A stretch of DNA of 64,000 bases, taken from positions 1 to 64,000 of the forward strand of contig CAMCUY010000004.1 in the NCBI GenBank assembly GCA_945879075.1. Direction: 5' to 3'. Shown here piece after piece: positions 26,716 through 37,772 of the stretch. Position 1 is the first letter of the stretch. Each line of letters starts with the position of its first letter. Under the pieces are notes generated by a model. The model was not told the DNA's origin. It ran no database searches and was given only the letters and a program-made list of their open reading frames with translations. Position numbers and translations under genes: made by a program. This DNA comes from Akkermansia muciniphila. Its GTDB lineage: Bacteria > Verrucomicrobiota > Verrucomicrobiia > Verrucomicrobiales > Akkermansiaceae.

Positions 26716-26759
26716 TTGACACTCTTTAGGGCGTGGTCTCCCTTTTGGCGACTGTCTGT
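26716..26759 (+). promoter_or_regulatory. Possible promoter of the ExbB/ExbD-toroid cluster
   Basis: TTGACA at 26716-26721 lies 38 bp before the ATG of the first TPR gene. No good -10 is seen at 16-18 bp, but other likely promoters in this window also show only a clear TTGACA. This is the only promoter-like motif between bioA and the cluster. Confidence 0.35.
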
Positions 26760-29735
26760 ATGACGCGAAAAAAACACAGAAAACCCCTTCAAATCTCCGC
26801 GCAATGGGCCGCGCTTTTGGCTTGTTCCATCTTAAGCGTCATTCCGGCATCCCGCATGGAAGCCCAGACACCTCCGGCGGCACCCGCCGCGCCTGTCGCC
26901 CCGGCCACCTTGAACCGCCTCTTCGGCGAGGCTGAAGCCGCATTTACAGCGAAGGATTATCCCACGGCGGTCGCGAAGATCGAGGAGTTGCTCAAAGCCC
27001 TAGGCCCTAACAAGGATGCGCCGCTGGAGCTGCTTTATTTCAATGTCGGCCTGGGAAACCTGCTGGCGGCCAAGCCGGTCGAGGCCGAGGTCGCGTTCAC
27101 CGAGTATTTGAAAAGATTTCCCAGGGGCGAGTATGCCAGCCGCGCCTATCTCGGTGTCGGCCGCGCGTGCATCGATCAAGCCACGCCTGAGAAAAAAGAG
27201 CGCGCTATCGAGGCCCTCAAGCTCGCCGCACGAGACCCGAGATTCCGCTCGGAAGCGGGCCTCTGGCTCGGCGAGGTCTATACCGAGCTCGGCAAACGCG
27301 ACGAAGCGCTCGTCGTTTTCAAGAGCCTGATGGGTTCGGACATCCGCTCGCCCCAGCAGACCACCGCCGCGGTGGCAGTCATCGGGCTGCTCGCCGACAC
27401 CGGCAAAATCGAAGACCTCATTCTCTATCTGGATCGCCTGAGCAACCAAGCCGGAGTGCGCGACGCCCTCGCTTGGTATGCCAACCAAGTCATCGTCCGT
27501 GGCGACGAACTGGTGGGAACCCAAGCCTACGAATCGGCGCTGACGATATACCGGTCCGTCCCGCCGCGCAGCCAGATCGTGGAGATCCAGAAATCCGCTC
27601 TGGATGCCCAGCGCAAGGATTTGAAAATCCTCGAAGCCCGCGTCGAACAGGAAAAGACCAAGCCCCTCGGCCAACGCTCCTCCGCTTCCGAACTGGTCGG
27701 CAATCTCAAACCCGCCATCGAACTGGCCGAGAAGGCGCTGGCCGCCGTCGAGGAAAAAGTCGACCTCGACGCCGCCCTGCTGATGCGCCGCGGGCGCTGC
27801 CTTTACTACCTTGACCGCCACGAGGAAGCGCTCGTCTGCTTCCGCGCGCTCCGCAACAAATACGCCTCGGCGCCCGACGCCAAAGCCGCCGCTTACGCGG
27901 AAATCGTCATTCTCAACAAGCTCAAGAACATCCCCGAGATCAAAGTCCTCTGCGACGCCTACCTGCGCAAATACCCCGATGCCGACAATGTCGAGCAGGT
28001 CGCCACCCTCGCCGGCGAGGTGCTCGTCCAGAGTGGAAACTGGCCCGAAGTCGCCAAGTTCTATCGCAATCTCGAAACCAAGTTCCCCCAGTCCGAGAGT
28101 CTCGACCGCTACACCTTCTTCCAAGGACTGGCAATTTTCCAAGAGGGCGACGTCAAGGAATCCACGCCCATTTTCACCAAGTTCCTCAAAACCTTCGCCA
28201 ACAGCCCGCTGGCGGAAAACGCCATGTATTACATGGCGATGTCGAACTTCCTGACGAACAATTACAAGGAGACCCTCAAGACCTGCAAGGAGTACATCGC
28301 CAAATTCCCAGACGGCCGCTACGCCGGCGACATGCGCTACCGGCTCGCGTTCATCGACTTTAACGACAAAGGCCCGGACCCCGAGGACTCCAAAGCGACT
28401 GCCGCCTATGAGAACAAGATGTGCGACAAGATCACCAAGGACCTCTCCTCGTTTCTTGCCGATCATCCCGACGACGCCTCCGCAGGCTCGATGTATTGCT
28501 TGGTTGGCGACGCTTATAAGAAAAAAACCTCCGACAAGCCCGACGAGCTGGTGAAATTCCAAAAGCTCGCGCTCGAAGCCTACAAGAAGGCCGTTTGGTC
28601 TGAGAGTTCCGACGACGTGATTCAATACGCACTGGATACCGCCACCACGATGCTCTCTGGCAACAAGGACTACGCCGGCATCGCCGCGCTCCACAGCGAG
28701 TTTCTCGGACGCAAGCCGGACAGCCCGCTGGCGCTGCTTTCCGCCTCGCAGGTCGCCAAAATGAAAACCCGCGAAGGCAAGGGCGCGGAGGCTGCGGAAA
28801 TGCTCGGCAACGCCCTCAAATCAAGGATCGGCAACCCGTCCGCCGAGCAAGTCGAATTCCTCCTCGACGAACTGGTGAAGACCCTCGTCCCGCGCAAGAA
28901 GGCGACGGAGGTCGATATCGACGCTTTGGACAAACAGCTCGTCGAGATTCTCAACAAGGTGATCGCCGGCCAGGAAAACGCGACCACCAACGCCCGCCTC
29001 TACTACGCCCGCGCCCGCCTCGCCCAGCTGTTGAAACGCGCCGACCGCTCGGATCTCTATCTGAAAGGCGTCGCCACCATCAACGCCAAGGACCCGTCGG
29101 TTCTCAGCCCGGCGCTGCTTTCCGTCTCCGGAGACATTCTGCTCAAGCTCGGCATGCTCGACGACGCGGAAGCGATGTTCAAGCGGCTCGTCGAGCGTTA
29201 CAAGGACGGCATGTTCGCCGACGCGGGGCCGGTCGGCCTCGGCTACATCGCCATGGCGCGCAAGCAGCCGGCGGACGCGCTGAAAATTTTCGAGACCGCC
29301 TTGGATACCAATCCCGGGATGTCCCGCTTCAAGGAAACCACGCTCGGGAAACTCGAGGCGCTCGCCGCGCTCGGCCAGTTCGAACCCGCCGAGAAGCTCG
29401 CGCTCGAGATCGTCGGCGACAAGATGTTCCGCGGCGAATCGGCGGGAAAAGCCTATCTCATCCTCGCCCGGATCCACCGCACGCAAGCGGAAAAGGCCGT
29501 CGGCGTGGACGCCAGACTCGAGCTGCTCAAGAAGGCCTACGCCACTTACCAACGGGTTTACATCGCCTATCAGAGCGCACCCGATGTCTGCGCCGAAGCC
29601 TACTGGCAGGCCTATGAAACCGCGACGGATATGGGCAACACGACACTCGCCGACGAAACGCTCAAGACGCTCGCCGCCAACCCGAAACTCAAGAACACCG
29701 CGCGCGCCAAGAAGGCCGTCGAGTTAGCCAAGTAA
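26760..29735 (+). CDS. Large exported TPR-repeat protein, first gene of the envelope cluster
   Basis: The protein of about 990 residues has a basic N-terminus and a signal-type helix (MTRKKHRKPLQ..., then AALLACSILSVIPASRMEAQ). A Pro/Ala linker and many helix-turn-helix units of TPR type follow (for example FGEAEAAFTAKDYPTAVAKIEEL and ALVCFRALRNKYASAPDAKAAAYAE). TPR arrays bind other proteins, so this may be a periplasmic scaffold. It is followed after 11 bp by a second exported protein and then the ExbB/ExbD genes, all in one direction. A similar TPR protein ends the cluster at 37772. I chose ATG 26760; GTG 26733 would add nine residues. Confidence 0.8.
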   Translation: MTRKKHRKPLQISAQWAALLACSILSVIPASRMEAQTPPAAPAAPVAPATLNRLFGEAEAAFTAKDYPTAVAKIEELLKALGPNKDAPLELLYFNVGLGNLLAAKPVEAEVAFTEYLKRFPRGEYASRAYLGVGRACIDQATPEKKERAIEALKLAARDPRFRSEAGLWLGEVYTELGKRDEALVVFKSLMGSDIRSPQQTTAAVAVIGLLADTGKIEDLILYLDRLSNQAGVRDALAWYANQVIVRGDELVGTQAYESALTIYRSVPPRSQIVEIQKSALDAQRKDLKILEARVEQEKTKPLGQRSSASELVGNLKPAIELAEKALAAVEEKVDLDAALLMRRGRCLYYLDRHEEALVCFRALRNKYASAPDAKAAAYAEIVILNKLKNIPEIKVLCDAYLRKYPDADNVEQVATLAGEVLVQSGNWPEVAKFYRNLETKFPQSESLDRYTFFQGLAIFQEGDVKESTPIFTKFLKTFANSPLAENAMYYMAMSNFLTNNYKETLKTCKEYIAKFPDGRYAGDMRYRLAFIDFNDKGPDPEDSKATAAYENKMCDKITKDLSSFLADHPDDASAGSMYCLVGDAYKKKTSDKPDELVKFQKLALEAYKKAVWSESSDDVIQYALDTATTMLSGNKDYAGIAALHSEFLGRKPDSPLALLSASQVAKMKTREGKGAEAAEMLGNALKSRIGNPSAEQVEFLLDELVKTLVPRKKATEVDIDALDKQLVEILNKVIAGQENATTNARLYYARARLAQLLKRADRSDLYLKGVATINAKDPSVLSPALLSVSGDILLKLGMLDDAEAMFKRLVERYKDGMFADAGPVGLGYIAMARKQPADALKIFETALDTNPGMSRFKETTLGKLEALAALGQFEPAEKLALEIVGDKMFRGESAGKAYLILARIHRTQAEKAVGVDARLELLKKAYATYQRVYIAYQSAPDVCAEAYWQAYETATDMGNTTLADETLKTLAANPKLKNTARAKKAVELAK

Positions 29736-29746
29736 TTTTCCCCAAT

Positions 29747-30625
29747 ATGATGCTTCCCTCGCACCCATTCCGGTCAGCCCTGCTGGCATGCGCGGCCGCC
29801 ACCCTGCCACTGTCAGGGGCAGGCGCGGCGGAACCGGTCCAGATCGTGTTCCAGAACGGTCGCTCGGTGCCGATTTCCTCCGTCGCGCTGCAAGGCGACA
29901 AGCTCACCATCACCGCCGCCGCCGAGGGCTTTAGTCCCGGACAGTCTTTTCCGCTGGCCACGGCCGACCACATCTTCGGTGAAAAACCCGCGGACCTCAA
30001 TCCGGGGATCGGCTTGTTGCTGATGGGGAAACCGGCCGACGCGCTCAAGCTGCTTGAACCGATCGTCGCCGCGCAACGCATCACCGCCAAGATCCCCGGG
30101 AACTTCTGGCTCGATGCCGCGCGCGCCTCACTCGTCGCCTACGCAGCGAGCGGAAATTCCGCCAAGTGCGTCGAGATCGGCAAGGAAATTTCCGACGCCA
30201 CACCGGCCCAAGGCATCGATCCCTTCGTTTCGCTCGGCAAGGCCCTGCTCCTCCCCGCCTCCGCCAGCGCCGAGGACCGCGAGGTCGCCCTGGGCGATCT
30301 AACGACGGACAACCTGCCGGCCGCCGTCTGCGCTTACGCGTCCTTCTACCGCGGGAAGCTGCTCAGCGAGCTCAAAGGTGACCCGGACCCAGTCAAAGCG
30401 ACCAAACAGAATGCCGACGCTCTCGAAGCTTATCTCATGGTTCCCTGCCTCTATCCGTCAGGCGGCATGATTCTCAACGGCGTCGCCGAACTCAAGGCCG
30501 CGGAATTCCTCGTCACCCTCGACCGCCGCGAGGAAGCCGTCGCGCTTCTCACCTCATCCGTCCTAGAATCCGCCGGTACCTTGGTAGCCACCGAAGCCGC
30601 CAAACGGCTCGAAAGCCTGAAATGA
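29747..30625 (+). CDS. Exported helper protein with TPR-like helices, unknown function
   Basis: The 292-residue protein has a clear signal peptide (SALLACAAATLPLSGAGAAEP). A short beta part follows (VQIVFQNGRSVPISSVALQGDKLTI), resembling the start of small SH3-like or planctomycete-type domains. The rest is helical, with repeats of TPR flavour (GLLLMGKPADALKLLEPIVAAQ). It lies 11 bp after the large TPR gene and 44 bp before the first ExbB gene, so it belongs to the same operon. I do not recognise a named family. Confidence 0.65.
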   Translation: MMLPSHPFRSALLACAAATLPLSGAGAAEPVQIVFQNGRSVPISSVALQGDKLTITAAAEGFSPGQSFPLATADHIFGEKPADLNPGIGLLLMGKPADALKLLEPIVAAQRITAKIPGNFWLDAARASLVAYAASGNSAKCVEIGKEISDATPAQGIDPFVSLGKALLLPASASAEDREVALGDLTTDNLPAAVCAYASFYRGKLLSELKGDPDPVKATKQNADALEAYLMVPCLYPSGGMILNGVAELKAAEFLVTLDRREEAVALLTSSVLESAGTLVATEAAKRLESLK

Positions 30626-30669
30626 TTTGCACATCTCTTTTTCACTCTCAAAATCAAACCACACACACC

Positions 30670-31449
30670 ATGAAAAACACCATCCTAAAGGGCCTCTATG
30701 CCGCTCTCGTGTTGCTTCCGATGACCGCCTTCGGCTCTGCCGCCAAACCCGGCGTCACTGAAAAAACCCTCATTGACACCTATTTCGAAGGCGGTTGGGT
30801 CATGCACCTCTTGCTGCTGTTCTCCATCGGGATGGTCTGGCTGATCATCGACATCTGGATGCGGACCAACAGCAAGAAGATGATGCCGCAGGAAGATGTC
30901 ACCATCGCCCAGGACCTTTTCCGCTCCGGCGACTACGTGGGGGCCTATCAAGCGATGAAAGCGAGCTTCAGCCCCTTCGCCGAGGTGATGCGCGCCGGTC
31001 TCGGTTCCGTCGGCTACGGCAAGGAAGCCACCGAAGACGCGCTTTATTCCACCGTGGAAAAAATCAGCTCCACTCTCCAAACCCGTATCAACTATCTTTC
31101 GGTGATCGGGGTCTGCGCACCGATGATTGGACTGCTCGGAACCGTCGGCGGGATGAAGGGAGCCTTCGGCAGTCTCGGCTCCGCCGGACTTTCCAGCGGC
31201 GTGGGTGAGCTGGCAGGCCACATCGGCGAGGTGCTCGTTGCCACCGCCGCCGGTCTGCTTGTCGCCATTCCCGCGTTCATGGCCTTCTATTTCCTGCGCA
31301 ACAAGCTGCAAGGAGCGGTCCATCAACTCCATGAGGAGACCGAACACCTTTTCCGCAACGCGCCTTACGACTATCTGAAGGACGCCGACGTCGGCCAGGA
31401 AGAGACCTACGCGGCCTTGCCGAACTGGGTCCAAGCTCCCGAAGGCTGA
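30670..31449 (+). CDS. ExbB/TolQ/MotA-family proton channel subunit, first copy
   Basis: The 259-residue protein has an N-terminal signal-like segment (MKNTILKGLYAALVLLPMTAFGSAA), then three membrane helices: WVMHLLLLFSIGMVWLIIDIW, SVIGVCAPMIGLLGTVGGM and VLVATAAGLLVAIPAFMAFYF. The APMIGLLGTVGGMKGAF block and the TAAGLLVAIPA helix are the family's channel-lining signatures. With ExbD it makes a proton-driven stator. The extra N-terminal segment is more than E. coli ExbB has. The start at ATG 30670 gives the signal-like N-terminus. Confidence 0.88.
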   Translation: MKNTILKGLYAALVLLPMTAFGSAAKPGVTEKTLIDTYFEGGWVMHLLLLFSIGMVWLIIDIWMRTNSKKMMPQEDVTIAQDLFRSGDYVGAYQAMKASFSPFAEVMRAGLGSVGYGKEATEDALYSTVEKISSTLQTRINYLSVIGVCAPMIGLLGTVGGMKGAFGSLGSAGLSSGVGELAGHIGEVLVATAAGLLVAIPAFMAFYFLRNKLQGAVHQLHEETEHLFRNAPYDYLKDADVGQEETYAALPNWVQAPEG

Positions 31450-31494: not shown

Positions 31495-31929
31495 ATGGCC
31501 GGTGGTGGTGGTGGTGGAGACGGCGAACCTGAGTTCCAGATCGCTCCGATGATCGACGTGCTGCTCGTGCTGCTCGTGTTCTTTGTCATGATCACCTCCG
31601 CCGAGGTGCTCAAGGTGGACAAGAACATCGTCCTGCCGGTTTCGCCCAACGCGAAGACGCGCGAGCCGGAGATGGCCAAGCACGAAATGGCGGTGAACGT
31701 CCGTTTCGACGCCAAGTCCAACAAAGGCCTCCTCGTCGTTGACGACCGGGAGTATAACAACTGGTCGGACGTCGTCCCCGTCCTTCAGGAAAGCCGCAAG
31801 CGCGACGAACGGCTCCGCATCGTGGTCCGCGGCGACGCCGCGGTGCCCGCCGGCGAGATCCAGCGCATCATGAACCTCATCGGTGAGGCCGGCATCGCCG
31901 ACATCGCCTTCGCCTCTTCCAACAAGTGA
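31495..31929 (+). CDS. ExbD/TolR-family proton channel subunit, first copy
   Basis: The 144-residue protein has a Gly-rich cytoplasmic start, one membrane helix (EFQIAPMIDVLLVLLVFFVMI) with the essential Asp at residue 21, and a periplasmic domain ending AGIADIAFASSNK. In the ExbD/TolR family this Asp carries protons and drives motion. The next ExbD gene begins 7 bp after its stop, so the two are made together. Confidence 0.9.
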   Translation: MAGGGGGGDGEPEFQIAPMIDVLLVLLVFFVMITSAEVLKVDKNIVLPVSPNAKTREPEMAKHEMAVNVRFDAKSNKGLLVVDDREYNNWSDVVPVLQESRKRDERLRIVVRGDAAVPAGEIQRIMNLIGEAGIADIAFASSNK

Positions 31930-31936
31930 CCCGCCC

Positions 31937-32395
31937 ATGAAACGAAACCGCCGTCACCGCCGGAAGGCCAACGCCGAAGTCAACCTGGGCTTCCAGATCG
32001 CGCCGATGATCGACGTGGTCTTCGTCATCTTGCTCTTCTTCATCGTCCAAGCCAGCGACATCCAGGTGGAGAACGCCCACGTCACCAAGCTTCCCGGCAC
32101 CGTGGAACTCAAGGAAGGGATCGTCACGCCGGATGAAATCGCCGTCCGCGTCGAGGACGACGGCCAGGTCTATCTCAATGACGATCCGCTCGACACGCCG
32201 GAAGCCAAGCTGCTGCCGGAATTCGCCAGCAACCTGAACCAACTGAGGGAAAGCAGCGACGCCGCGAAAACCGAAGTGCTGGTGACGATTTACGCCAACG
32301 ACCTTGCGCGCTATGAAAGGGTGGTTGACGTGCTCGACGCCCTGAGTCGCGCGAAAATCTCAAACGTGAGCTTTCAGGCCGGAAGCTCGGAGTGA
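31937..32395 (+). CDS. ExbD/TolR-family proton channel subunit, second copy
   Basis: The 152-residue protein has a strongly basic cytoplasmic start (MKRNRRHRRKANAEV), a membrane helix FQIAPMIDVVFVILLFFIVQ with the channel Asp at residue 26, and a periplasmic TolR-like domain (IYANDLARYERVVDVLDALSRAKISNVSFQ). It follows the first ExbD by 7 bp and precedes the TonB-like toroid protein. Two different ExbD proteins with one ExbB suggests a mixed ExbD dimer; that is inference. Confidence 0.9.
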   Translation: MKRNRRHRRKANAEVNLGFQIAPMIDVVFVILLFFIVQASDIQVENAHVTKLPGTVELKEGIVTPDEIAVRVEDDGQVYLNDDPLDTPEAKLLPEFASNLNQLRESSDAAKTEVLVTIYANDLARYERVVDVLDALSRAKISNVSFQAGSSE

Positions 32396-32437: not shown

Positions 32438-33979
32438 ATGGAAACTTACGATAGCGAAGGAAACCTCATCCACCTTGAGAAAAGAAAGCAGGGGTTCTGG
32501 GCGAAGATCGGCGGCGGCTCGCTCCTGATCGCGGCCTTGTTTCACGTCGTCCTGCTGGTGATCGGTGGGTTCTGGGTGTTCCAAATCATTAAGGAGCCCG
32601 AGAAAAAAGTCGATTTCATGCCGCCCGGCGGCGGTGGCGGCGAGCGCGGTGCCGAGCACAAAGTGCAGCAAAAAAAGCGCGCGCAGATCACTCCCACCAC
32701 CAATTCCAAGCGGGTCTTCGCCGAAGGCGCGGCGTCATCTTACGCCATTCCCGAGCAAGGCGACAACTTCGGTGAAATGTCCACTCTCAGCTCGCTCAGC
32801 GGCGGCGGCATGTCCGGCGGCCTGGGCGGTTCCGGCAGCGGTTCCGGCTTCGGCAAAGGCACGGGAACCGGCGGCGGACTTGGCATGGGCGGCGGCGCGG
32901 GCAAGCTGTTCGGCTTGATTCCGGAAGGCATGCGCAAGCGCTGCTCGAAGGAGGACCGGCTCGCCCGCCTCATGGAAAACGGCGGCACTCCGGCCTGCGA
33001 CGAGGCCGTCGTCAAAGGCCTGCGTTGGTTGAAGGCCAATCAGAGTCCCGACGGCTCATGGGGGGGAGCTGCCATGACCGGCCTCGCGCTGCTCGCCTAC
33101 TTCGGCCATTGCGAGACCCCGGTATCCGAGGAGTTTGGTGACTCCTGCATGAAGGCCATCGTCTATCTGGTCAATATCGGCATGAAAAACGACGGCAAAA
33201 TGGCCGACAATTTCACCGCAGGCAGCTGGGTTTACCAGCACGGCATCGCTACCTACGCCTTGGGCGAAGCCGCCACCTTTTGCAAGGAACTCAAAGTGGA
33301 AGTCCCCAACCTCATGGAGGTTACTGAAAAAGCCGGCCAGTTCATCATCGATAACCAGAACGAAAACGGCGGCTGGGCATACCTTTATGCCACCCAAAAA
33401 GGCCACACCGACACCTCGGTCGTCGGTTGGCAACTTCAAGCCCTCAAGGCATGCAGCCACACCAACATCAAATACAAGGGGCTGAGCTCATCCATCAGCA
33501 AAGGCCTCAAATATATGAGCGGTTGTCAGAATGAAAACGGCGGCTTTGGCTATGCGGGACCGAACGGACCTGCCGGTAAAGACAAGTATTTCAGTCTGAC
33601 CGGAGTCGGCGTCCTATGCCACCAGATGTGGGGTAAAGGGTCTTCTTCCGAGGTCCGCAAAGGAGTCAAATACATCAAGGAAAACACCAAACTGTATTGG
33701 GACACCGAAGACTCGGACCTTTATTGCCACTATTACGAATCCCAAGCCATGATGCAGGCGGGCGGCGACGACTGGAAGTTCTACAACGACCTCTTCCGCG
33801 ACCAACTCCTCAACAACCAGAACCCGGATGGTTCATGGAAAGCTCCCAAGTTCGATGGTCACGGCCAGAATCCTAGCAATGCCGTATACCGCAACACGCT
33901 CTGCATCCTGATGCTGGAAGTTTACTACCGTTTCCTCAATTCCAGCGGCGGATCCAACAAGGCAAAGTCCGGCATCTGA
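32438..33979 (+). CDS. TonB-like membrane-anchored protein with a squalene-cyclase-type alpha/alpha toroid
   Basis: The 513-residue protein has a short cytoplasmic tail (residues 1-24), one membrane helix (about 25-50, with SLLIAALFHVVLLVIGGFWV and a His at 36) and a long linker (about 60-160). The linker starts basic and polar and becomes very Gly/Ser-rich (MSGGLGGSGSGSGFGKGTG). A domain from about 185 to 505 follows, built of repeats with QW-type motifs: ANQSPDGSWGG, DNQNENGGWAY, GCQNENGGFGY and NNQNPDGSWKA. This is the prenyltransferase/squalene-oxidase toroid fold. The cyclase DxDD motif is not visible, so enzyme activity is doubtful. The N-terminal plan matches TonB, including a membrane His, but no TonB C-terminal domain is present. 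It sits among ExbB and ExbD genes, where TonB would be. Confidence 0.85.
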   Translation: METYDSEGNLIHLEKRKQGFWAKIGGGSLLIAALFHVVLLVIGGFWVFQIIKEPEKKVDFMPPGGGGGERGAEHKVQQKKRAQITPTTNSKRVFAEGAASSYAIPEQGDNFGEMSTLSSLSGGGMSGGLGGSGSGSGFGKGTGTGGGLGMGGGAGKLFGLIPEGMRKRCSKEDRLARLMENGGTPACDEAVVKGLRWLKANQSPDGSWGGAAMTGLALLAYFGHCETPVSEEFGDSCMKAIVYLVNIGMKNDGKMADNFTAGSWVYQHGIATYALGEAATFCKELKVEVPNLMEVTEKAGQFIIDNQNENGGWAYLYATQKGHTDTSVVGWQLQALKACSHTNIKYKGLSSSISKGLKYMSGCQNENGGFGYAGPNGPAGKDKYFSLTGVGVLCHQMWGKGSSSEVRKGVKYIKENTKLYWDTEDSDLYCHYYESQAMMQAGGDDWKFYNDLFRDQLLNNQNPDGSWKAPKFDGHGQNPSNAVYRNTLCILMLEVYYRFLNSSGGSNKAKSGI

Positions 33980-34091: not shown

Positions 34092-34925
34092 ATGAAGTGC
34101 TGCCATTTCTCCGCCGCGGGTTTTTTCCTCTCCGCACTCGTCGCCTCCGCCGCCGCTGAAACTCCGGTCCCGGCGGTCAAGGAAATGAACTTCCTCGAAA
34201 TCCTCGCGAAGGGCGGCATCATGATGTATCCGCTCGGCCTGATGTCGGTCATCACCGTGGTGTTGATCCTTATTTTCCTCCTCACCGTCCGCCGCAACGC
34301 CATCGTCAGCGACCGCTTCATGAGCAGCGCCGAGGCGATGATCCGCAAGCGCGACTTCCTCGGCCTCAGCACCCTGAGCCACCGCCGCAACGAGTGCATG
34401 GCCCGCGTCACACAGAAGACCCTCGATTTCATGGCCGCCAATCCCGGCACCGCCTTCGAAAACGTCCGCGAAGTCGCCCAGACCGAAGGCTCCCACCAAG
34501 CCGGCATGCTCACCTCCCGCATCACCTATCTCGCCGACATCGGCGCGATCGCCCCAATGGTCGGCTTGCTCGGAACCGTGTTCGGGATGATCGAGGCGTT
34601 CATGCAAATCTACTCCGGCCAAGTCCAGGGCGTGCGCGAAATGGGATTGGCCGAGGGCGTTTCCAAAGCGCTCATCGCCACCGCCGGAGGCCTCGCCATC
34701 AGCATTCCGGCGCTCGCCTTCTACTCGATCTTCCGCGGCCGGGTGCAAAAATACGTCTCGGAACTCGAAGCCGCTTGCACCCATTTCGTCATCCTCCTGC
34801 ACGCGCAGCTTGAGCGCCAGCCGGCCCAGTCCTATGCCAATCCGGTCCAGCGCGGCCCCGAAGACTACGCCATGCCCGTCGCCTCCCCGCTCTCCGGAGA
34901 GCGTCCCGACCTGCACGGGATCTAA
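34092..34925 (+). CDS. ExbB/TolQ/MotA-family proton channel subunit, second copy
   Basis: The 277-residue protein has a signal-like N-terminus (FFLSALVASAAAET), then three membrane helices (MMYPLGLMSVITVVLILIFL, IGAIAPMVGLLGTVFGM, TAGGLAISIPALAFYSI). The APMVGLLGTVFGMIEAF block is the family signature. Between helices 1 and 2 lies a cytoplasmic helical segment (AEAMIRKRDFLGLSTLSHRRNECMARV). It is 112 bp after the toroid gene and 11 bp before a third ExbD, so it forms a second channel set in the same cluster. Confidence 0.9.
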   Translation: MKCCHFSAAGFFLSALVASAAAETPVPAVKEMNFLEILAKGGIMMYPLGLMSVITVVLILIFLLTVRRNAIVSDRFMSSAEAMIRKRDFLGLSTLSHRRNECMARVTQKTLDFMAANPGTAFENVREVAQTEGSHQAGMLTSRITYLADIGAIAPMVGLLGTVFGMIEAFMQIYSGQVQGVREMGLAEGVSKALIATAGGLAISIPALAFYSIFRGRVQKYVSELEAACTHFVILLHAQLERQPAQSYANPVQRGPEDYAMPVASPLSGERPDLHGI

Positions 34926-34936
34926 CTGACAACGGG

Positions 34937-35356
34937 ATGAAGTTCTCCAATCGTCAGCCGCCTGCGATCGCCATCCAATTGGCGCCGATGATCGACATCC
35001 TGCTTTTGCTGCTCAGCTTTTTCATCATCAGCTGGCAGTTCAGCAAATCCGAGACCGAGCTCAACGTTTCCGTCCCCACCGCCCAGGAAGGCGCGGAACC
35101 CGAGCGCGTGCGCGGGGAAATCATCATCAACGTGCTCGCCGACGGCGTGATCCGCGTCGAAGGCCTCGCCGTGGACCGCCAGCAGTTGTTCGACAAGCTC
35201 TCCGCCATCGCCAAGCAGTTCCAGAACCAACCCGTGCGGATCCGCGGCGACGGCGGCGTCGCCTACCAGCGCATTGTGGAAGTGATCGACACCTGCCAGA
35301 AAGCCGGGATTTGGAACATTTCCTTCGCGACCCAGCGCCCGGAACCGGCCAAGTGA
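34937..35356 (+). CDS. ExbD/TolR-family proton channel subunit, third copy
   Basis: The 139-residue protein starts MKFSNRQPPAIAIQLAPMID with the channel Asp at residue 20. Its membrane helix (ILLLLLSFFIISWQF) and periplasmic domain (VRIRGDGGVAYQRIVEVIDTCQKAGIWNISFAT) have the TolR form. It directly follows the second ExbB. All three ExbD copies in the cluster keep the Asp, so none looks inactive. Confidence 0.9.
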   Translation: MKFSNRQPPAIAIQLAPMIDILLLLLSFFIISWQFSKSETELNVSVPTAQEGAEPERVRGEIIINVLADGVIRVEGLAVDRQQLFDKLSAIAKQFQNQPVRIRGDGGVAYQRIVEVIDTCQKAGIWNISFATQRPEPAK

Positions 35357-35399: not shown

Positions 35400-37772
35400 T
35401 TGAAACGCGCGCTCGCACTTCTCATTCTCGTCGCCAGCCCGGCAATCGCCCAGATTCCCCGGGCCGAGGCCGTCGATCCCGCGTTGAGTCCGAACGCCTC
35501 CAACGACTTCTTCCAGCGCGGCAAAAACCTCTACGACTCCGCCCAGGCGAGCACCACCCAGCAAAACCGCATCGATTACTTCCAGCGCGCCGCGCAGATT
35601 TTTTCCGAATACCTCACCTCGTTTCCCAATCATCCGAACGCCGAAATGGCATGGTGGTATCTGGGAAACAGCTACTATCAAGCCGGCCAGATCGACGACG
35701 GGAAACGCTGCTTCAGCACCTTGTTGAACCGCTACGGCAAGGGCAAGTGGGCCGCCGCCGCCGCCTACACGCTCGCCGCAGATCATTATAACAAGTCGGA
35801 ATACGCCTTCGCCGCGCCCATGTTCGAGCGCTTCGCCGCGAATTCCGCCAAGCCCGAAGAACAAGTGCGCGGCACCTACCTCGCGGGAAACTGTTACCGG
35901 CTCCTCGGCCGCGACCGCGAGGCCGTGACCGCGTTCAGGAAAATCACCGAGGACCGCGCCGGCGGCTTGTATGCCGCGCAAGCCAAGGTCGCGCTCGGCC
36001 ACCTGGCATTGAAGACCGGCAAGGGGCCGGAAGCCCTCGCCCTCTTCGAGCAAGTCATCGGCGGACCCTCCTCCGCGAAAATCCGCGGCGAGGCGGCGCT
36101 GCACGCCTCGCTCACCGCCACCAAACTCGGCCAGACCGACCTTGCCGACAAATACCTCCAGCTCATCCTCCGCACGCCCGGAATGGAGGATTTCAGCCCG
36201 GACGCCCAGACCGCGCTGATGGCCAACTTGTTCGCCAAAAAGGAATACCGCGAGGTCGTCGACATCTTCCGCCGCGGCGCCGCCAAGGCCGTCGGCGAAA
36301 AAGAGGCTGACCGCCTGATGATCGCCGGCCGTGCCTACATGCGCCTGCAACTGCCGAGCGAGGCACTCCAGCTTTTCCGCGAGGTCGAGCGCTTGGTTAG
36401 ACCCGAGACGGACACCGCCTTCCAGGCTTCCTACTACCGGCTGCTGTGCTTTTTCCAAATCGAAGGCCGCCACCTGCCGGACCAGGTGGACGCGTTTCTG
36501 CAGCTCTACAGCAAGTCCCGCCCGCTAGATCCGCGCATCCACACCGCCCTCATGATGAAGGCGGAAACCTTGTTCTCCAACAAGGACATCGCCGGCGCCG
36601 CCAAGGCTTACAGAGAGATCAACGCCTCTTTCATCAGCGAGAAAAACCGCCCCGGCCTGCTCTATCAGCGCGGATGGTGTCTCGCCGAAGCCGGCGACGC
36701 CCAAGGCGCGATCCGCTCCTTCAGCGACTTCATCAACAAATATGCCGCCGACTCCCGGGTGCCCTCCGCCATCGCCAAGCGCGCCACTGCCTATGCCGAG
36801 AGCGCCGAGCCCGCGAAAGCCATTTCGGACTACGACCGCCTGACCGCCGCCGGCATCCCGGAGGATCTCAACTCGTTCGGCTGGCTCGAGTCCGCCCGCT
36901 TGCGCCGCGCCGAGAGCAACATCCCGGACATGATCCTCCGCTATCAGGGACTTCTGAAAAACGTCAAAAACCTCAGCGACAACCTGCAAGCCGAGGCCAA
37001 CTACTGGATCGGCTGGGGACTCGTGAAAACCAACGTCGCCAAAGACGCCGTCGATTACCTCGAAAAGTCCCGCACCCTCCGCCCGGACGCTTACGCCAAA
37101 CACGCCGGACTCCTCCTTATACTCGGCTACTTCGCCTCGCAAGATCCCCTCAAACTCGCCGCCGAGATCAACCTCGCGATCGACAAGAAATATGACGCGG
37201 ACATCCCCGACCAGGCGATCCAGTGGTCCGGCATGCAATCCTACAACGCCGGTGATTACTCCTCCGCCGCCAAGTCGCTCGCCCTGGTCTCCAACCCCGA
37301 GGAACCCCGCGAAACTCCCAAGGAAGTCTGGCGCTACCTCGCCAAGGCCCGCCTCGGATCCGGCGACCCCGAGGGCGCGCTCGCTGCGGCGAACAACCTG
37401 CTCGCCGTCGAGGACAATTCCGGCTGGAAAGCCGACGGCCTACTCGACCGCGGCCGCGCCCTGCTCGCCCTCAAGCGCCCCGAAGAAGCCCGCAAGGCGG
37501 CCGACGAAGCGCTCGCCCTCCGCCCGCAAGGCCACACCAGCGCCGGCCTCAATATTCTCGTCGGCGACCTTGAACTCCAAGCCGGCGACGCCAAGACCGC
37601 CGCCGGAAAATACCTCATCGTCGTCGAGTTCCACGAGGACAAGGAGCTCAAGCCGCTCGCATTTTGGAAACTCATCCAAGCCCTTGAACAACAAGGCGAC
37701 CGCGCCGAAGCTGAAAAATACCGCCTGAAGCTCAAGACCGAATTTCCCGACTGGAAGCCTCCCGTCCCTTAG
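35400..37772 (+). CDS. Large exported TPR-repeat protein, last gene of the envelope cluster
   Basis: The 790-residue protein starts at a TTG (35400) that gives a clean signal peptide (MKRALALLILVASPAIAQIP). Many TPR-type units follow, including RIDYFQRAAQIFSEYLTSFPNHPNAEMAWWYLGNSYYQAG and later ADGLLDRGRALLALKRPEEARKAADEALAL. Some early units resemble YbgF/BamD-type TPRs, which work with Tol or outer-membrane assembly systems. It follows the third ExbD by 43 bp. speA begins 26 bp after its stop and may be co-transcribed. Confidence 0.82.
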   Translation: MKRALALLILVASPAIAQIPRAEAVDPALSPNASNDFFQRGKNLYDSAQASTTQQNRIDYFQRAAQIFSEYLTSFPNHPNAEMAWWYLGNSYYQAGQIDDGKRCFSTLLNRYGKGKWAAAAAYTLAADHYNKSEYAFAAPMFERFAANSAKPEEQVRGTYLAGNCYRLLGRDREAVTAFRKITEDRAGGLYAAQAKVALGHLALKTGKGPEALALFEQVIGGPSSAKIRGEAALHASLTATKLGQTDLADKYLQLILRTPGMEDFSPDAQTALMANLFAKKEYREVVDIFRRGAAKAVGEKEADRLMIAGRAYMRLQLPSEALQLFREVERLVRPETDTAFQASYYRLLCFFQIEGRHLPDQVDAFLQLYSKSRPLDPRIHTALMMKAETLFSNKDIAGAAKAYREINASFISEKNRPGLLYQRGWCLAEAGDAQGAIRSFSDFINKYAADSRVPSAIAKRATAYAESAEPAKAISDYDRLTAAGIPEDLNSFGWLESARLRRAESNIPDMILRYQGLLKNVKNLSDNLQAEANYWIGWGLVKTNVAKDAVDYLEKSRTLRPDAYAKHAGLLLILGYFASQDPLKLAAEINLAIDKKYDADIPDQAIQWSGMQSYNAGDYSSAAKSLALVSNPEEPRETPKEVWRYLAKARLGSGDPEGALAAANNLLAVEDNSGWKADGLLDRGRALLALKRPEEARKAADEALALRPQGHTSAGLNILVGDLELQAGDAKTAAGKYLIVVEFHEDKELKPLAFWKLIQALEQQGDRAEAEKYRLKLKTEFPDWKPPVP

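Follow-up and report, generated by a model that had tools for sequence, protein, structure and literature searches.

Gene organization of the locus

The window, the whole 64,000-nucleotide stretch of Akkermansia muciniphila DNA analyzed here, contains a motor operon in which TPR, 292-aa protein, ExbB1, ExbD1, ExbD2, toroid protein, ExbB2, ExbD3 and TPR genes follow one another, all on the plus strand. The genes, with the evidence for each, are as follows:

26733..29735, +, large TPR protein of 1000 aa that opens the conserved operon (Pfam TPR_6, YfiO)
29747..30625, +, 292-aa protein, flanked by TPR and ExbB genes in close relatives too (synteny)
30622..31449, +, ExbB1, TolQ-like motor channel (Pfam PF01618, 3.1e-24; TolQ alignment)
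31495..31929, +, ExbD1, TolR-like, membrane Asp (PMID) kept (Pfam PF02472, 2.6e-18)
31931..32395, +, ExbD2, TolR-like, membrane Asp (PMID) kept (Pfam PF02472, 1.5e-20)
32438..33979, +, toroid-headed putative transducer, ATG to stop, 513 aa (Pfam, AlphaFold2 (AF2), structure comparison)
34092..34925, +, ExbB2, TM1 without Trp (Pfam PF01618, 4e-27)
34937..35356, +, ExbD3, membrane Asp kept (Pfam PF02472, 1.1e-26)
35400..37772, +, second TPR protein, YbgF/PorW-like repeats (NCBIfam TIGR02795, 9.9e-37)

The 1000-aa TPR protein scored just under the cut-off of the NCBIfam YbgF model and stands upstream of ExbB in relatives too. The 292-aa protein, which is conserved in the operon, had no Pfam or NCBIfam match. 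Alignment to TolQ revealed that ExbB1 retains the TM1 Ser and the TM3 Pro, whereas its TM1 Trp is shifted by one position relative to the TolQ site. ExbB1 is the best candidate for the motor partner of the toroid protein; it is proposed over ExbB2 on account of its upstream place in the conserved core and of its TM1 Trp, which is kept, though displaced. The TM1 Trp is absent in many other upstream ExbBs, and the ExbB1 Ser/Trp network was judged too weak as proof of docking, the Trp being displaced here and often missing elsewhere.

The TonB C-terminal domain (PF03544) had no match in the 513-aa protein or in the window motor operon. The sole TonB_C domain detected in the genome (C5:1221-1403) belongs to another operon, receptor-TonB-ExbB-ExbD, on contig 5, and two further motor pairs were found elsewhere; these genome-wide counts are from profile searches of a genome that is about 90% complete, such that a gene could be missing. 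As these other motor sets and the TonB_C domain are located elsewhere, the window motors are left with no other obvious transducer.

The full gene order of the operon is also present in close relatives, and the core ExbB-ExbD-ExbD-toroid recurs throughout the phylum Verrucomicrobiota, in at least 16 families, counted as 16 family codes in addition to named families. The family also occurs in a culturable relative, Haloferula sp. BvORR071. ExbB is located further upstream than ExbD at 83 of 97 motor-linked toroid genes, and at 14 of the 97 the locus stretch covered contains no ExbB. A search for phage relatives returned none. Locus variants were also observed. At L079:2824-8313, TPR-ExbB-ExbD is followed by two large toroid proteins, one of which combines a PD40 propeller with several membrane helices and has GSAIIH ahead of the toroid. 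Two or three tandem toroid proteins are present at L135, L136 and L104-L114 (g18, another genus of the same family); these g18 tandem toroids have a membrane helix, no Ser-x3-His and no motor nearby.

Architecture of the 513-aa protein

An AF2 model of the 513-aa protein, built on 39 relatives, was combined with hydropathy and alignments to assign the following features:

32519..32587, +, membrane helix, residues 28-50 (hydropathy and AF2)
32543..32545, +, His36 codon, inside the helix, with Ala at -4 (N-module alignment)
32594..32635, +, candidate motor box EPEKKVDFMPPGGG, residues 53-66 (N-module alignment)
32603..32926, +, disordered Gly-rich linker, residues 56-163 (AF2)
32990..33937, +, (alpha/alpha)6 toroid, residues 185-500 (AF2, structure comparison)
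33965..33976, +, tail KSGI-COOH, of the same type as in PA14 heads of the family (sequence)

The N-terminus is short and charged and is followed by the single helix at 28-50, seen both in hydropathy and in the AF2 model. The stretch after the helix, PEKKVDFMPPGGGGG, leads into the linker, which runs to about residue 163; this region of ~100 residues is Gly-rich and has pLDDT values under 50. The AF2 model thus displays one N-terminal membrane helix, then the disordered linker, then a globular domain at the end. The TonB-like plan of tail, His36 helix and long linker that the first-pass annotation had read from the letters is therefore borne out by hydropathy and by the model, with disorder at 56-163.

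As judged by eye, helix 28-50 lacks signal-peptide character and no small-x-small site follows it. A cleaved signal peptide in the 513-aa protein, the outcome that would have severed the proposed link to the membrane motor, was accordingly rejected on sequence grounds. By contrast, a clear signal peptide is present in a secreted 334-aa toroid paralogue, 27% identical and in another gene context, on contig 12 of the same genome (L076:9051-10055).

The C-terminal domain is a toroid that has lost the cyclase acid

The following toroid features were mapped:

33014..33061, +, QW motif 1 (motif scan)
33329..33376, +, QW motif 2 (motif scan)
33500..33547, +, QW motif 3 (motif scan)
33818..33838, +, QW motif 4, core QNPDGSW (motif scan)
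33239..33241, +, H268, kept in 127/141 relatives (toroid alignment)
33410..33412, +, D325, kept in 139/141 relatives and aligned with D377 of squalene-hopene cyclase (SHC) (alignment)

The four QW-type motifs claimed at the outset were all recovered: QxxxGx[WF] occurs at residues 202, 307, 364 and 461, and three of the four motifs conform to the full QW consensus. Shuffling residues 181-513 20,000 times, with W, F or Y all accepted at the motif end, yielded a mean of 0.2 QW-type motifs and never four. The domain matched Pfam SQHop_cyclase_C (2.5e-10, 40.4 bits versus a cut-off of 26.1), while NCBIfam cyclase models matched the protein far below their cut-offs; the SHC equivalog TIGR01507 was not reached (28.4 bits versus a curated 431 bits).

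Structure prediction had been put forward as the check on residues 185-505, and it returned a confident toroid, rather than some other fold, with pLDDT mostly over 90; the predicted span, about residues 176-501, is close to the range put forward. The top solved structure in VIA-align was SHC (Z 26.6, rmsd 2.8, 281 residues aligned). Because other solved alpha/alpha toroids, epimerases and mannanases, follow at Z 22-23, the fold alone is poorly informative on function; sequence comparison of the toroid also indicates the cyclase branch.

In the alignment, SHC D374-V-D376-D377-T lies opposite G322-H323-T324-D325-T, and therefore the proton donor D376 is replaced by Thr in the 513-aa protein. A search of the protein for DxDD found none, and GHTD stands in its place, in agreement with the initial reading. 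Only 2 of the 141 toroid relatives have a literal DxDD at the cyclase position, both from one locus of one distant genome; this locus (L148:5917-9064) encodes two toroids with DRDD at the acid position, and its complete toroid has Ser in the membrane helix where His is expected. A terpene cyclase was thus rejected as an assignment, DxDD being lost here and in the other 139.

Other toroid positions are strongly kept. Y266 is found in 141/141 relatives and Y429 in 140/141, and E277 is likewise kept. Three helices, 264-284, 326-340 and 428-441, have Y266, H268, D325 and Y429 at their N-ends; we take them to be inner helices, as this is where the position of DxDD lies. The arrangement suggests that the four residues line a conserved ligand pocket. 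By analogy with the sugar-binding sister heads described below, an envelope glycan or glycoprotein may be a reasonable first guess for the ligand.

One N-terminal module carries three types of head

Relatives were collected by searching with the whole 513-aa protein and then with its N-terminal part alone. The helix, box and linker form a common N-module that is found on toroid, PA14-like or von Willebrand factor A (vWA) heads: the 137 N-module proteins comprise 61 with a toroid, 53 with a PA14-like head and the rest with vWA, of which 11 were assigned by profile and 12, otherwise unassigned, were read as vWA from a DxSxS-type motif (from Pfam for L064). That PA14 and vWA heads share the N-module had escaped the first-pass annotation. 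The 513-aa protein itself has no vWA, its Pfam domain being that of squalene cyclases. An AF2 model of a PA14-type head had a mean pLDDT of 56, with most of the head at 70-93, and its best PDB matches were PA14 sugar-binding domains, such as 6x8a (Foldseek 3.3e-05).

On a tree of 127 N-modules, head type changed at least 22 times, and the starred branches alone force 4 to 6 changes per head; the exact number is soft because the tree rests on 101 columns. The case of L068 is plain: this PA14 protein clusters at 99 with toroid proteins, including one encoded 7 kb away on the same contig. There are 17 N-module copies in one complete genome and 13 in another. No motor gene is nearby for 51 of 58 PA14 copies and 28 of 28 vWA copies, some of these loci being short; thus, if these copies use a motor, it would act in trans.

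Several unusual arrangements were noted. On contig 15 of the same genome, a 96-aa ORF (L075:6661-6951) consists of the N-module GGGSLSIYLILHLFLLAGG...PKVDF with no head and is probably a decayed transducer gene. L064:5740-9510 encodes a 1256-aa YfbK-type vWA protein with a membrane helix and the N-module-like box PEKKVDFMPASGGGG in its middle part. A secreted 1062-aa protein (L077:183-3371) combines the same toroid with VIT-vWA domains and a Gly linker, a fusion that hints at toroid and vWA acting in one pathway.

One family within the N-module proteins shares a (K/R)xGI-type C-terminal tail. A basic residue closely followed by a [GDEKS]-[IL] end is found in 22 of 31 toroid heads of the window protein's family, and [GDEKS]-[IL] ends in 38 of 44 PA14 heads and 1 of 15 vWA heads. 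Because two unrelated heads share the tail, it suggests a docking peptide. In toroids of other families (L119-L154) the tail is acidic and strand-like (for example DDVKIEVL) and is not of the (K/R)xGI type.

Conservation of His36 and the VDF box

Across all three heads, His36 is kept in 126 of the 127 aligned N-modules, and position 32 (-4) is only ever Ser or Ala (Ala in the 513-aa protein). The +7 and +11 positions are Gly and Val in the 513-aa protein instead of Leu and Ser. After the helix, the VDF box (V58-D59-F60) is likewise kept, D59 in 116/127 and F60 in 126/127; it occupies the place expected of a motor box, and AF2 alone does not predict a strand there. Together with W21 and G25, conservation extends over both sides of the membrane in the 127 proteins. 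In cryo-EM structures, TonB S16/H20 and TolA S18/H22 (Ser-x3-His) touch ExbB and TolQ, and the His is essential (PMC12215075). In TonB, the post-membrane stretch forms a strand bound to the ExbD dimer (PMC10771500) and has been named the motor box (PMC12204202). The proposed linkage of the 513-aa protein to an ExbB/ExbD motor is thus supported far more strongly than the letters alone could show, by a gene order conserved phylum-wide and a near-invariant His.

Distant motor-linked toroids whose N-termini are unlike the N-module retain Ser-x3-His (for example GSVIFH, ISVVLH and LSVLLH). There are exceptions: a motor-linked clade (L022/L062/L153) naturally has Ala instead of His36, and four other motor-linked toroids lack Ser-x3-His. 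A sister clade with an NSTISS-type helix has toroids with neither the His nor a nearby motor, and so a toroid can act motor-free. In the raw table, Ser-x3-His occurs in 58 of 63 linked toroids versus 16 of 41 unlinked ones (58/5/16/25); with correction for kinship on the toroid tree, the 6 independent starred-branch pairs gave a median p = 1, these pairs being too few for a decision.

A putative proton-driven transducer with an exchangeable head

What the computations above show are the features of the sequence, its fold, the conservation of the operon and the exchange of heads. Our favored explanation, which we hold to be quite probable, is that the 513-aa protein is a TonB/TolA-like, proton-driven inner-membrane force transducer with an interchangeable head; within this model we infer motor binding, force coupling, topology in the cell and the ligand. 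The N-terminus would be cytoplasmic, the membrane helix would dock on ExbB1 via Ala/Ser-x3-His36 and, outside the membrane, the VDF box would pair with the periplasmic dimer of ExbD1 and ExbD2. The ~100-residue Gly-rich linker would carry the toroid across the periplasm, where a partner could be bound by the conserved pocket in the mouth of the toroid and, perhaps, by the KSGI tail, and proton flow via ExbB1-ExbD would pull on the bound head. Anchor, box and linker would make up a module that is reused while the head (toroid, PA14, vWA) is swapped.

Alternatively, the toroid could be a tethered enzyme or binding protein that is only co-transcribed with the motor and receives no force, its His serving assembly or stability. 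The near-invariance of Y266, H268, D325 and Y429 at the place of the SHC active site fits such a role, as does the occurrence of unlinked and secreted toroids, one in the same genome. However, the catalytic D376 is missing in the 513-aa protein, and co-transcription leaves unexplained why conservation of His36 and VDF exceeds that of the remaining helix and spans unrelated heads; we thus regard this explanation as unlikely. Slightly less likely again, the toroid protein would regulate the motor or scaffold it statically, for instance as a ligand sensor that switches the channel, and would be no force lever. Its setting inside an operon of two ExbB, three ExbD and two TPR proteins is consistent with this role and the conserved candidate pocket could serve as a sensor, but the His helix, box, ~100-residue disordered linker and end domain follow the plan of a force transducer, and no further transducer was detected in the operon.

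Cleavage of the helix at 25-50 as a signal peptide, which would leave the toroid free in the periplasm, is very improbable: the hydrophobic stretch does sit N-terminally and genuine signal peptides do occur on related toroids (L002/L076, L084), but here a His lies mid-helix, the small-x-small site is lacking and the W21, G25 and VDF flanks are conserved with all three heads. A divergent membrane-anchored class II terpene cyclase, for which the toroid fold and QW motifs speak, is the least credible of all given the missing DxDD here and in nearly all relatives.

Extending the transducer model, we propose tentatively, and with somewhat less than even confidence, an open-ended class of PMF-driven periplasmic effectors, in which one coupling module (His helix, VDF box, Gly linker and, in one family, the (K/R)xGI-type tail) with repeatedly exchanged heads, in up to 17 copies per genome, would perform mechanical work on glycans or proteins within the envelope, work that has no TonB-receptor counterpart. 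If this is true, a motor that drives toroid, sugar-binding and vWA heads phylum-wide would make the range of proton-driven envelope work much wider than assumed. On the basis of a single conserved residue, His36, many functionally uncharacterized proteins would be predicted to be motor-coupled, and the natural head swaps would provide ready-made chimaeras.

Comparison with known systems

Ton and Tol are textbook envelope machines powered from the inner membrane. The 513-aa protein has in common with TonB and TolA the overall plan, the Ser/Ala-x3-His helix, a candidate post-membrane box and ExbB/ExbD partners in the operon. Unlike them, it is missing the TonB_C or TolA C-terminal domain, its linker is Gly-rich rather than Pro-rich or helical, and the Leu and second Ser of their SHLS are not at the usual spacing. 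With SHC and class II terpene cyclases it shares the toroid fold, the QW motifs and the D377 equivalent; it differs from SHC in the loss of D376, in having one toroid instead of two and in being membrane-anchored in a motor operon. The PA14 sugar-binding domains (MpAFP PA14, PDB 6x8a; yeast flocculins) represent the fold of an alternative head and not that of the window protein.

The closest precedent is the vWA force transducers of the Planctomycetes-Verrucomicrobia superphylum described by Williams-Jones et al. 2025 (PMC12204202). The words squalene, prenyltransferase and toroid are absent from the main text of that study, and its section on new transducers names vWA heads only. We found no description of toroid- or PA14-headed transducers among open-access papers, and nothing on toroid proteins in papers on the outer membranes of Poribacteria and Akkermansia. 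The first-pass annotation had envisaged a new kind of energy-coupled domain: the toroid head is apparently new, but the kind is not wholly so, since motor-linked transducers with a non-TonB head (vWA) were described from the same superphylum in 2025 (PMC12204202).

In the vWA systems, TPR, tolQ-like and two tolR-like genes precede the transducer gene, which encodes a conserved His (PMC12204202), and the same gene types lie upstream of the toroid gene. Both proteins also have a helix with a motor-binding-type His, a post-membrane box (a candidate one in the window protein), a disordered linker and a non-TonB head. Indeed, vWA-headed proteins with the identical type of N-module occur among the relatives collected here. 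Unlike the vWA transducers, however, the window protein presents a toroid head, and PA14 heads exist as well.
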